Shown piece after piece: positions 37,494 through 41,103 of a stretch of 64,000 nt of DNA; position 1 is the first letter of the stretch; each line of letters starts with the position of its first letter. The stretch lies in contig CP073042.1 of NCBI GenBank assembly GCA_018114805.1, positions 4,757,501 through 4,821,500 on the forward strand, read 5' to 3'. This DNA is from Candidatus Streptomyces philanthi (GTDB lineage: Bacteria > Actinomycetota > Actinomycetes > Streptomycetales > Streptomycetaceae). Below the pieces are notes generated by a model. That model saw only the letters and a list, made by a program, of their open reading frames with translations. It had not been told where the DNA came from and made no database searches. A program made the position numbers and the translations under genes.

Positions 37494-37924
37494 TCAGCCC
37501 GCGATGGTCTGAGCCGGGACGGACGGCTGATCGGAGTGTCGTACCGGCAGCCCCGCCGTCCGCCACGCCTGGAAGCCACCGACGATGTCGGTGGCCCGCG
37601 CCAGGCCGAGCTGGTGGAGGGAGACCGCCGCGATGCTGGAGGCGTACCCCTCGTTGCAGAACACCACCCCCGCACGTCGTGCCCGGTGACCTCGGGCAGG
37701 CGGTGGCCGCCGTGCGGGTCGAGTCGCCACTCCAACTCGTTGCGCTCCACGATCAGCGCCCCGGGGACCAACCCGCCCCGGTCACGGAGGGCGCCGTAGC
37801 GGGTGTCGATGAGCAGGGCGCCGTCCCGTGCCGCCGCTGCGGCCTCGTGCGGGCTGAGCCGGTGGAGCTGGGCCCGGGCCCGTTCGAGGAGGGTGTCCAC
37901 GCTGGTCGGCGGGTGGGTACTCAT
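37494..37924 (-). pseudogene. rhodanese-domain protein, frameshifted
   Basis: The start (MSTHPPTSVDTLLERAR) overlaps the stop of the cysteine dioxygenase gene by ATGA. The first part is rhodanese-like: LSPHEAAAAARDGALLIDTR, PGALIVERNELEWRLDP. At a G5 run near 37670-37676 the frame must move one base to reach the active-site segment VVFCNEGYASSIAA (catalytic Cys) and IVGGFQAWRTAGLPV. Rhodaneses move sulfane sulfur. The coupling to cysteine dioxygenase points to handling of cysteine-derived sulfur. As given, the active-site cysteine is out of frame. Confidence 0.82.
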
Positions 37925-38647
37925 GCCCACTCCCCGGGGTGCTCGACCTGCTCAAGGCGGAGTACGGGGCCCGTACGGCTGTAGCGGCGCATGAGCGGCA
38001 GCGGTGGGTAGTAGGCGTGCATGGAGATGGCGTGTCGCTGGGCGGAGAGGTTCAGCACCTGGTGGACGTGGTGCGGGCCGAAGGCGCGGCCGTCGCCCCG
38101 GGGCAGGGTGCGCTGGCGCTCCACGCCCTCGGCGAGCTCCAGCGTCTTCCACCCCTCGGTGGGCAACTGAGGGGTGAGTGACTGCTCGATCAACTCGCCG
38201 TCCGCGATGGCGAAGGCGCCGTGCGAGCCGCCGTGGTCGTGCCAGCCGGTGCCGGTGCCCGGCGGCCAGCTGATGAGCCAGGCCTCGCTGCCTCCCGGCC
38301 CCTCCAGCCGGGACCAGGTACGCCCCTCCGGGTCGAGGGGCAGTGTGGCGACGAGGGCGGCGTCGGCCGCGACGCGGCGGACGTAGTCGAGGAGTTCGGT
38401 CAGGGAGGTGCCGTTGCCCTGGGGCGCGGGCGTCGCCTCCGGGCGGCCGGAGGCCGGGGCCGGGCCCCGCCAGACGGCGCGGCGCGCCCCGGCCCGACGG
38501 CGCGACCCGGTGTGGTGGTGGGGGTGTGGCGATGGCCGAGGCGTACGGGGACGCGGCGGGTGGGGCCGCGACGGCGGGTGAGGGGTTCGCCGTGGCCGAG
38601 GTGGGGGCAAGGGGAGCGGAGGCAGGGCCGACCGAGCTGGTTGTCAC
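37921..38647 (-). CDS. cysteine dioxygenase (cupin), N-terminal frameshift likely
   Basis: The cupin core has the three-His iron site of cysteine dioxygenase: WHDHGGSHGAFAIADGELIE with HxH, the third His in GPHHVHQVLNLS, then HAISMHAYYPPLPLMRRY. It oxidises cysteine to cysteine sulfinate. The core frame is open from 38610, but its first 65 codons are Pro/Arg/His-rich and unlike coding sequence. In another frame GTG 38647, with AGGACGG 6 nt upstream, begins VTTSSVGPASAPLAPTSATA, typical of the Ala/Pro/Thr-rich N-termini I recall for Streptomyces homologues. A one-base indel between about 38420 and 38540 would join them. It lies below a cysteine-rich leader ORF. Confidence 0.75.
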
Positions 38648-38650
38648 GGA

Positions 38651-38724
38651 GACCGTCCTGAGGGCTCGCAAGGATGCGCGGCGGCGGGCCACGCGGAAGG
38701 GGAAGGCGGATCAGCAGGACGGTC
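38651..38724 (-). promoter_or_regulatory. long-range stem between leader ORF 3' end and cysteine dioxygenase RBS
   Basis: On the minus strand GACCGTCCTG (38724-38715), covering the last codons of the leader ORF, is perfectly complementary to CAGGACGGTC (38660-38651), which contains the AGGACGG ribosome binding site of GTG 38647. The loop is 54 nt. Translation of the leader would open the stem, so it is a plausible translational attenuator. Confidence 0.6.
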
Positions 38725-38797
38725 GACACACGCAGCCCGCGTAGCGAAGGAGGTCCGTGTGGACCCTCCGCCAGAGACGCAGGCTGGTGTCAGACAT
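38711..38797 (-). CDS. cysteine-rich leader peptide upstream of cysteine dioxygenase
   Basis: This 28-residue ORF starts MSDTSLRLWRRVHTDLLR and ends YAGCVCRPSC-stop, with three cysteines among the last eight residues. It resembles the short R-x-H-x-D-L-x-R leader peptides ending in Cys that I recall upstream of sulfur genes in streptomycetes. It lies 64 nt before the proposed cysteine dioxygenase start. A TAGTCT box (38813-38808) and a TTGACC (38834-38829) 15 nt further upstream give a start near the ATG, so the message may be leaderless. Ribosome progress over the Cys codons would report cysteinyl-tRNA supply. Confidence 0.75.
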   Translation of the reverse strand: MSDTSLRLWRRVHTDLLRYAGCVCRPSC

Positions 38798-38807
38798 GGT
38801 TCGTAGT

Positions 38808-38834
38808 AGACTACCTCCCTTCGCTCATGGTCAA
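38808..38834 (-). promoter_or_regulatory. promoter of the leader peptide-cysteine dioxygenase-rhodanese operon
   Basis: TTGACC (38834-38829) and TAGTCT (38813-38808) with a 15-nt spacer on the minus strand lie just upstream of the leader ORF. The next 480 bp upstream (38835-39311) hold no gene; only degenerate TACGGAGC/CACGGCGCCCC-type repeats occur, near 39180-39300. Confidence 0.55.
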
Positions 38835-39311
38835 CAGCGACCGGGTGTGCGCCCGCGCACTTTCCCTCCCCCACCGGCCGCTCATGCGGCGCGCCGTCCA
38901 CACCCCGGCTGGACGCCTCGCGTCCGCTTCTGCGGTCGCGCGTCGCCCCCCGAACCGGCCCCCGGACGCGCCCGCGCGAGCCCACCGCGGCCCGCGGTGA
39001 CGAGCCGCGTGCGCACCGGCACGCCGGGGCGCACGCGACGGCGGTTGCTCGCGCGTGGTCGGTGACAGCGCGTAGGCGGCCTCGCCCGAACCGGGTGGCG
39101 CACGGAGCCGGCGAAGGTAGCTCGGCGCGTACGGCCCGGGTGGGCACCTCTCGACGCGCCCGCCCCGCACCGCCGTACGCGCGTCTCCGACCGCTCCCCC
39201 TGGCCGGCTTAGGGCCACGGCCAACGGCGTACGGGGCGCGGCGCCCCGGTGTACGGAGCACGGCGCCCCGGTGCAGCGGTGTACGGAGCACGGGGGCCGC
39301 CGTGGTGGTGG

Positions 39312-41103
39312 TCAGGTGGGGCTGTGGGCGGGGGTCTGGAGGACCCCGCCCCGTGCGGCGTCCGCGCAGGCGTACAGCTCGGCCTGACGGACCCCCGCCA
39401 GCGCCGCCACCAGGTAGCCGTCGGGCCGTACCAGCAGCACGGTGTGCGCGGCGGCCCCCGGATAGCCCTCCGCGACCAGGATCTCGGCCCGTACCGGCAG
39501 CGCGGCGACGGCCGCGGCGAGGCGGGGCATGAGCCGCGCCCACCCAGTGCCGGCGCTCCCACACGCCCGTGCCCGGGGCGACCAGGACCACGAGGAGCGC
39601 TCCACCGAGCCGGCTGCGGAGCCGGGTCAGTGAGCCGTCGGGCGCCGTCACCGGCACGTCGGCCACCGGGCTGCCGGGCGCCGTGTCCACGGTCTCCGCG
39701 CCCTCCGGGGGAGCGGGTTGCAGCGGGCTGTGCTGGTAGCTCGGGGGCGCGCCGAGTTGCCCGAGACCCGCGTGGCCGTCGGTGAGCAGCGCGTCGTGGT
39801 TCCGTACGGAGCCCGGCAGCACCGAACGGCGCACGGCGGACCAGCCGCCCGGCGCGCGCACCTGGGACAGCAACTGGTCGGCGGTGCGTAGTCGGGCGCC
39901 GACGGCGCCGCGCCGTTCCGTCTGGTAGCTGTCGAGCAGCTGGTCGCCCGCGCCGTGGTGCCAGGTGAGGGCCAGCTTCCAGGCGAGGTTGTCGACGTCG
40001 CGCAGCCCCTCGTCGAGCCCCTGCGTGCCGAGTGCCCCTATCAGGTGCGCGGCGTCCCCGGCGAGGAACGCCCGCCCCACCCGCCAGCGCCGGGCGAGCC
40101 GATGGTGCGCCAGGTACACGCCGGTGTCCAGCAGTTCGTACGGCGGCAGGGTGCCGCACCAGCCGGTCAACGTGTCCCGCACACGGCTGAGCAGGGCCTC
40201 GGGGGTGACCAGGTCGCCGCCGGGCGGCAGCAGCCAGTCGAGCCGCCAGGCGCCACCCGGCAGCGGGCGCGCGGTCGCCTCCGCGTCGGCGCCTCGCCAC
40301 GGCGGCAGCCGGTGCAGCAGGCCCTCGCCGGGGAAGGGGAGGTCGGCCCTGAGCGCCGCCACGGCATGCCGCTCCACCGCCGTCCGGCCGGGGAACCGCA
40401 CGCGCAGCAACTTGCGGACGGTCGACCGCCGGCCGTCGCAGCCGATCACGTAACTCCCGCGCCACCAGATGCCCTTGGCCTCCGGGCCGCTCGCGGAGTC
40501 CGAAGCCTCCGTGGCCGGCGCCTCGCCCGGATCGGCGGCGTCCGCCTCGTCCGCCGGCTCCGTGTCCAGGACGGGCCGGGTGTGGACGCTGACGCCGGCC
40601 TCGTCCTGTTCTATGGCGTCCAGCCGCCCGCCCGTGGCGATCCGCACCAGCTCGCCGCCGGGCTGCTGGCAGAACGAGGCCAACGCGGCGCGCAACGATC
40701 GGGTGAGCACGTGCTGGGGGAGGTGGAGCGGCGAGGCGATGCCCGACGGTTCGTCCGGCGCGGTCGCGTCACGCGGGGCCGGGAGCGCCGGCGGGGCGTC
40801 CGCGGCCCCGCTCCGTGGCGTCTGCGAGTCGTCGAAGGTCACCTGACGCACCGTCTGGCGCCGGCGCATGGTGCGCCACCCCGCCCAGCGGGCACCGCCG
40901 TCGGTGGCGACGGCGCATCCGAGGCGGCTCAGCATCTGGGCGGTGTCCGGCCGGAGCACTGCGGTACGGGCGGGGCGCTGCTCGTCTATGCGCGGCCGGC
41001 CGGGCCCCTCGTCGAGAAGGATGACGGGGACGTCACGGCGGGCGAGAGCCAGCGTCAGCGCGAGGCCAACGGAGCCCGCGCCCACGACGATCACCGGGTC
41101 CAC
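39312..41103 (-). pseudogene. FAD-dependent aromatic monooxygenase (PheA/TfdB type), frameshifted near the C-terminus
   Basis: About 597 residues across the lesion. The N-terminal FAD-binding motif is VIVVGAGSVGLALTLALARR, the middle motif YVIGCDGRRSTVRKLL, and the GD motif GRAFLAGDAAHLIGALGTQGLDEG. A thioredoxin-fold C-terminal domain follows, as in class A hydroxylases of phenols or polyketides. The frame breaks near 39540 in a G-rich run: after ERRHWVG one base must be dropped to continue ARLMPRLAAAVAALPVRAEILVAEGYPG and the end VLLVRPDGYLVAAL. Catalytic FAD motifs are all before the break, so a truncated protein might retain partial function. The substrate is unknown. The start is GTG 41103. 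Confidence 0.82.

Follow-up and report, generated by a model that had tools for sequence, protein, structure and literature searches.

A reading frame of 28 codons, with three cysteine codons near its stop, precedes a gene of the cysteine dioxygenase family in Candidatus Streptomyces philanthi, and its last codons are complementary to the ribosome binding site of that gene. Might translation of this leader control translation of the dioxygenase, and if so, which positions of the leader ribosome would open the site and what would the leader sense? Here, we address these questions in the window, i.e. the whole stretch of 64,000 nucleotides that was analysed, and in homologous loci of other genomes. 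The features concerned are these:

37494 to 37930, minus strand: rhodanese-like gene, adjoining the dioxygenase stop (Pfam Rhodanese scores below cut-off on this fragment)
37921 to 38610, minus strand: cysteine dioxygenase type I family protein (PF05995; E 7.6e-40, 136.6 bits against a cut-off of 23)
38645 to 38647, minus strand: GTG start codon of the dioxygenase as judged from homologues; in this assembly its frame differs from that of the downstream core
38651 to 38660, minus strand: 3' arm of stem P3, CAGGACGGTC, containing the ribosome binding site AGGACGG (38653-38659)
38676 to 38694, minus strand: P4, apical hairpin of the predicted sequestering stem-loop
38711 to 38797, minus strand: leader ORF, 28 codons, member of NF042934, with ATG at 38797 and stop TGA at 38713-38711
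38734-38732, 38728-38726 and 38716-38714, minus strand: leader Cys codons C22, C24 (UGU) and C28
38715 to 38724, minus strand: 5' arm of stem P3, GACCGTCCTG, i.e. the end of Arg25, Pro26, Ser27 and the start of Cys28
38742 to 38773, minus strand: hairpin P1, codons W9 to Y19
38805 to 38810, minus strand: -10-like element TCTACT
38829 to 38834, minus strand: -35 element TTGACC

The leader and its dioxygenase gene

The predicted ORF ending GCVCRPSC-stop is seen in the sequence, from ATG 38797 to TGA 38711 on the minus strand, and encodes MSDTSLRLWRRVHTDLLRYAGCVCRPSC. With 30.6 bits, the peptide exceeds the cut-off of 27 of NCBIfam family NF042934 ('putative leader peptide', cis_reg_atten), and it scores 29.1 bits in a profile search of its own genome. 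Against NF042933, the family of the Cys-rich leader Ms5788A, it reaches 18.4 bits for a cut-off of 45, and the covariance models of Rfam 15 gave no match up to E 5 in 38300-39300. Its cysteines are arranged C-V-C-RPS-C and lack the contiguity that marks the polycysteine attenuators of mycobacteria. Conservation extends beyond the Cys codons to His13, Asp15, Leu16 and Arg18, with synonymous changes, and this counts against a pure codon-count attenuator, which needs no such conservation. The stop is TGA in 78 of 78 loci (the window and 77 relatives) and TAG in three loci of other genera.

The promoter is equally regular. The TTGAC motif lies at most 45 nt from the leader start in all 78 loci; its first base is 35-37 nt before that start in 64 of them, and in the other 14 a second, nearer TTGAC was measured. 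Since the -10-like TCTACT stands 7 nt before the ATG, a leaderless mRNA is implied, and the promoter spacing fits a transcript that would begin at the leader start codon itself.

The pairing was compared over 126 loci, 119 of the window's genus and 7 of sister genera. Eighty relatives were picked by similarity to the window's dioxygenase and 77 were used (no leader was found in L022, and L063 and L083 are at contig ends), which with the window makes 78 loci. To these were added 41 further same-genus loci, the same-genus matches of one search together with the best of a second (L128 was dropped, having no dioxygenase in its stretch), and the 7 sister-genus loci. The 41 may overlap the 78, one of them being identical from leader to ribosome site, and the loci are related rather than independent, so that the counts below are not probabilities.

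The choice of GTG as the dioxygenase start is borne out by homology: in 77 of 77 leader-bearing relatives an in-frame start (62 GTG, 12 ATG and 3 TTG) follows GGACGG, or GGATGG in L088, by 5-8 nt. The ribosome binding site named in the original prediction, AGGACGG at 38659-38653, is also present before GTG 38647-38645, but the spacing is 5 nt and not 6. That the GTG is out of frame might have spoken against it as the start. We rejected this, given the in-frame starts of the relatives and the single bases missing from the window. In the dioxygenase, a single base is missing from the window near 38521 and another near 38458 relative to the reference S. buecherae NZ_CP060404, and a further difference of 6 nt near 38479 is in frame. 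Against the same reference, the rhodanese-like gene is frame-broken by one base short near 37667 and the upstream monooxygenase, near its end, is two bases short near 39535. With several small losses clustered in GC-rich runs over a few kb, the breaks in the three genes are probably assembly errors rather than real ones.

The solved chains nearest to the dioxygenase carry the name cysteine dioxygenase (best E 1.4e-12), a name that tests nothing. Cysteine is the enzyme's putative substrate by family membership, and the neighbouring rhodanese would also suit sulfur salvage. More distant dioxygenase relatives (43-46% identity; L214, L215, L217 and L218) lie near two NF042934-like leaders on opposite strands.

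Pairing between the leader end and the ribosome binding site

The perfect complementarity over 10 bp was found as predicted: GACCGTCCTG (38724-38715) faces CAGGACGGTC (38660-38651), with 54 nt between them. Over eight positions, the pairing of CCGTCCTG with CAGGACGG is complete in 101 of the 126 loci, reaches 7/8 in 22 and 6/8 in 3. As background, among 11,699 other windows of 8 nt taken downstream of the leaders in the 78 loci, one pairs fully. The window's stem-loop folds with z = -2.6 (2 of 200 shuffles as good), its whole leader RNA with z = -4.5 (0/200), and the median stem-loop z over 75 distinct arm pairs is -4.0. A covariance model of the structure, R1, finds this site alone in its own genome (E 8.8e-25; the next match has E 4.55). 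A pattern search with a gap of 20-50 nt matched 6 of 121, among which G542 looks like chance, and this is not a frequency, most loops being longer. The observation that the leader end pairs with the ribosome site is thus confirmed, and is stronger than had been claimed.

Third bases are nearly fixed inside the arm in same-genus leaders (Pro26 is CCG in 109/119 and Ser27 TCC in 114/119, for frequencies of 0.49 and 0.36 in the codon use of the dioxygenase genes), and those of Arg25, Cys28 and Cys22, just outside it, vary. The 126 loci hold only 16 distinct arm pairs. One stem pair is U-A in 109 loci, U-G in L144, L148 and L133, and C-G in the sister-genus loci L143, L147 and L151, all three kinds occurring among the sister genera. 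The upper stem arms fit their own partners better than those of other loci (native -7.91 against -7.34 +/- 0.11 kcal/mol when swapped, none of 300 swaps over 75 distinct arm pairs doing as well).

In the lower 8 bp, covariation is scarce because the ribosome-site arm is almost frozen, AGGACGG being near-invariant. Where leader codons differ the site seldom compensates, which leaves 25 of 126 loci not fully paired, and in eight loci the leader has a C opposite a retained A of the ribosome site. In alignment A1, which leaves out five loci with long loops, the structure pairs 92.1% of cells, against 91.3% when shuffled and 31-46% when slid. Pairs altered on both sides are no more numerous in A1 than in shuffles (69 of 500 as high), and RNAalifold run on it did not pick the sequestering stem. 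Run at 30 C on 73 full leaders, it yields a consensus fold that takes in five of the eight pairs of the lower stem. The checks put forward with the original prediction were folding and covariation of the stem; the fold is closed on free RNA and C-G replaces U-A in sister-genus loci, but the lower stem covaries little.

RNAalifold also found a hairpin within the leader ORF, P1, with third-base covariation between codon 9 and Arg18. Across genera these bases are G-C in 38, C-G in 15, U-G in 1 and unpaired in 2 of 56 distinct sequences. The covariation score of the helix is 0.113 against 0.058 in shuffles, none of 500 being as high; the number of pair types is not unusual (193/500 shuffles). P1 can explain the rare AGG codon at Arg11 and the replacement of Trp9 by His, Tyr or Val in other genera. 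It also accounts for the GGAGG inside the leader, so that internal initiation is not needed to explain this motif. Such initiation, at an NTG after His13, was rejected in any case, the codon being CTC in 8/119 loci and ACG in the window. In the folded RNA of the window (38725-38791), GACACCAGCCTGCGT at the head of the leader ORF is paired to codons 20-25, which lengthens P1 into one long hairpin; folds of some relatives show the same.

How far does the lock extend? Forty loci were fetched from other genera of the family, of which 8 gave no leader and are uncounted. The lock, taken as GGACGG before the start and CCGTC at the leader end, is kept in 7 of the other 32 and absent in 25. An eighth candidate, L157, was rejected: its CCGTC and GGAYGG matches arise by chance and its ribosome site is GGGTGG. 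Homologous loci that keep the leader and lose the complementarity, named in the original prediction as evidence against it, therefore do exist outside the core group (25/32). As these 25 keep the leader without the lock, the association of leader and dioxygenase is wider than this particular lock. In genus g120, which we infer to be Kitasatospora-like, the leader mostly ends in CTAAR and the ribosome site resembles GGGTGG, i.e. both arms differ together. Fold calculations gave no clear opening step by the ribosome in g120 leaders, nor any ribosome-dependent step in the sister-genus locus L151, where the pairing is present. Among L140-L177 (mostly g120), AGGGTGGTNACCC or a close variant often precedes the start; it may fold into a short hairpin of its own across the ribosome binding site and stand in for the one paired with the leader.

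In a family-wide draw, the leader was found in 142 of 249 genomes and 9 of 17 genera; in the window's genus, 95 of 105 genomes have it. The ten same-genus genomes without it have no close dioxygenase orthologue, nine having only relatives of 37-46% identity, and G133, also without leader, having a C-terminal piece of 63% identity and a 40% relative. Orthologues in four leader-bearing genomes searched alongside are 68-73% identical. Leader and this dioxygenase go together within the window's genus. The lock itself is conserved in Streptomyces and sister genera, where the pairing can hide the ribosome site of the next gene.

Ribosome position and the direction of the response

In free RNA at 30 C, the mean unpaired probability of AGGACGG is 0.02 over the 78 loci. 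The median energy needed to open the site is 13.2 kcal/mol in free RNA and also with the ribosomal A site at C22, and drops to 8.3 at V23 and 6.6 from C24 to the stop. The 41 further loci follow the same course (12.0 free, 11.5 at C22, 8.0 at V23 and 7.2 kcal/mol from C24 on), and do so also at 37 C. These values assume a ribosome edge about 15 nt past the P-site codon and the boundary depends on 2-3 nt of footprint: with an edge 2 nt longer, C22 already opens the site partly (8.7), and with one 3 nt shorter it stays closed (14.0). The assumed edge agrees with the 15-nt offset at start codons given for M. tuberculosis Ribo-seq in PMC9094748. Once the lock is removed the site is still mostly paired (mean unpaired 0.24 over the 78 loci, 0.56 in the window), because other partners are available downstream. 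Hence, the predicted switch is graded, a drop of about 6-7 kcal/mol and not full exposure. A competing hairpin, P2 (GCGGG with CCUGC), was rejected as anti-sequestrator, since it has 5 bp and little variation, and the site is closed on free RNA in the mean of the 78 loci.

Pairing, conservation and folds thus support in silico the idea that the ribosome binding site is masked by the leader's 3' end and, as a prediction, opened by ribosome occupancy. The locus is probably a translational attenuator whose gate is set by the ribosomes that occupy codons 23-28. A leaderless mRNA would open with the 28-codon NF042934 leader. On the free RNA, the Pro26-Ser27-Cys28 codons would close the dioxygenase ribosome binding site by pairing with it. 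A ribosome with its A site anywhere from codon 23 to the stop is computed to cover the 5' arm and remove the lock, after which the site should be easier to open yet would tend to pair elsewhere downstream. At the first Cys codon or earlier, a position at the edge of the footprint uncertainty, the ribosome is computed to leave the lock shut. Since ribosomes on codons 23-28 remove the lock and earlier ones leave it shut, regulation would amount to their dwell time on these codons, including the family-invariant UGU24.

This codon merits attention. C24 is UGU in all 119 leaders of the window's genus and all 32 of other genera. A UGU also stands at the same distance from the His position, 11 residues after it, in 33 of 33 other NF042934 leaders (L005-L007, L009 and L180-L208; 4 from the window's own genome and 29 from class-wide draws), which share the RxxxDLxR core with the window's leader. 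The other Cys codons of these 33 leaders are 39 UGC against 13 UGU, and the invariant UGU points to codon-level selection across a widespread family, NF042934 being over its cut-off in 45 of 60 class-wide genomes. Unlike these relatives, beside none of which a dioxygenase was shown, the window's leader precedes a thiol dioxygenase, ends in GCVCRPSC, and has last codons that pair with the ribosome binding site of the next gene.

What, then, is the direction of the response? In the computed folds, the site stays closed when a ribosome stalls at C22, and the lock is weaker when it stalls at C24 or C28. With assumed rates, a ribosome-flow simulation yields an opening that rises at moderate cysteine limitation (0.05 to 0.46, 0.19 to 0.63 and 0.52 to 0.70, for a 60-s mRNA life) and declines at extreme limitation; it only rises with shortage if C22 already opens the site. 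Because stalls at C24 and C28 remove the lock and the flow model opens at moderate shortage, the claim that ample cysteine switches the gene on does not follow. A cysteine-induced switch, opposite in sense to biosynthetic attenuators, is one possibility and not a consequence of the anatomy. On these models, the chances are about even that the gene is ON when ribosomes pause at UGU24 or Cys28 with charged tRNA-Cys limiting, a reading likelier than ON at ample cysteine, which we hold to be possible at most; that another signal or a nascent-peptide arrest sets the direction is rather doubtful. For an enzyme that breaks down cysteine, induction by starvation would be odd, but cysteine is here a putative substrate. 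One might go further and tentatively propose a cysteine-sensing translational switch of the band-pass kind, conserved across Streptomyces and sister genera. The lock on the dioxygenase ribosome binding site would then be the leader's last three sense codons, a stall would leave the site closed at C22 and open at C24 or C28, and the sensor would be a UGU common to the family and selected for its slow decoding.

If cysteine did induce its own breakdown, ribosomes would reach the stop and uncover the site when it is ample, and starvation would stall them at C22 with the site shut. We regard this as possible though clearly not the leading case. C22 is the first Cys codon met, a ribosome there leaves the site closed in the fold calculation, and a cysteine-degrading enzyme is expected to be off in shortage; moreover, a flow model with the boundary moved past C24 and fast initiation has opening fall from 0.40 to 0.14 with shortage. 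Yet C24 and C28 stalls open the site, and with the computed boundary the model lowers opening at extreme shortage alone, or never if C22 opens, as it would in part with a footprint 2 nt longer. In addition, a Cys two residues before the conserved one also occurs in other NF042934 leaders, and L060 and the g116 loci lack it. The ribosome might instead be held near UGU24 or the stop by its own nascent peptide, which would sense cysteine or another small molecule and so open the site, by analogy with TnaC and Erm leaders. The peptide-level conservation with synonymous variation, the fixed 11 residues between the His position and UGU, and the TGA stop in 78/78 loci speak for such an arrest. We think it rather unlikely, as P1 explains the conservation of Trp9 and several codons, three other-genus loci have TAG, and the core is common to leaders that precede other genes.

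Two further explanations do without a lock. The pyrimidine-rich segment after the leader stop might be a Rho loading site masked by ribosomes, i.e. attenuation would act on transcription: the stretch from +6 to +25 past the stop has 72% pyrimidine and 23% G, where coding DNA of the dioxygenases has 51% and 35% (78 loci), and the same was proposed for mycobacterial cys leaders in the passages of PMC1262725 on them. This leaves the fixed pairing of AGGACGG with the leader end unexplained, and the pyrimidine bias may partly just keep the loop open; we consider it unlikely. The segment in the window is 38686-38705, G-poor and pyrimidine-rich, possibly a Rho site or an open loop. Alternatively, the pairing could be a by-product, the codons of a conserved peptide happening to complement a conserved ribosome binding site. 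Both arms are indeed near-invariant, hence the limited covariation. But it is mainly within the arm that third bases are fixed (other fixed codons being UGU24 and several in P1), both arms are replaced together in g120, C-G compensates for U-A in sister genera, and the background rate of full pairing is 1/11,699, which makes coincidence very improbable.

Known leaders and the control of sulfur flow

The closest parallels are found among translational attenuators. In the Erm type, a leader ORF precedes a sequestered ribosome binding site that is opened by ribosome position. The window's locus shares leader ORF, sequestered site and, as a prediction, opening by ribosome position, and the defining trait of the type, a conserved stem that sequesters the ribosome binding site through an arm in the leader, is present here on computational and comparative grounds. 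It differs in that the leader's own last codons would be the masking arm, and, unlike for the Erm type, we know of no antibiotic ligand. The TnaC leader of the tryptophanase operon, which acts through Rho and an arrest at the stop codon by tryptophan, also precedes a gene of the amino-acid-degradation type, whereas the window's leader is predicted to mask a ribosome binding site.

In the open-access full-text literature, we found no title or abstract opening on a leader peptide controlling a Streptomyces dioxygenase. The mycobacterial polycysteine leaderless attenuators (Canestrari 2020), as summarized in PMC9031893, resemble the window's leader in being short ORFs with Cys codons near the stop and in an mRNA predicted to start at the start codon. 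Judged by that summary, the window's leader differs in its isolated cysteines, in a downstream gene that is not biosynthetic and in a defined, predicted sequestering hairpin. The account of leader peptides in a reannotation of S. lividans gives eight of them, none assigned there to cysteine, the metL peptide having three Cys (PMC8079986). The part of a 2005 actinobacterial survey on cys leaders places these in Mycobacterium, Propionibacterium acnes and Bifidobacterium longum, and describes the mycobacterial ones as without conserved terminators (PMC1262725).

NF042934 leaders are widespread in the class, and their effector structures are mostly undescribed in the literature that we found. In this leader, a conserved candidate effector can be seen, namely a stem that would hide a ribosome binding site, with one codon deciding between locked and unlocked. 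Ordinary Streptomyces strains allow direct tests of how it works, in which direction, and what the invariant UGU does. If the band-pass reading is true, enzyme production would peak at moderate cysteine shortage and be lower both when cysteine is plentiful and when it is extremely short. The study of these leaders bears on the control of sulfur flow through thiol dioxygenases.
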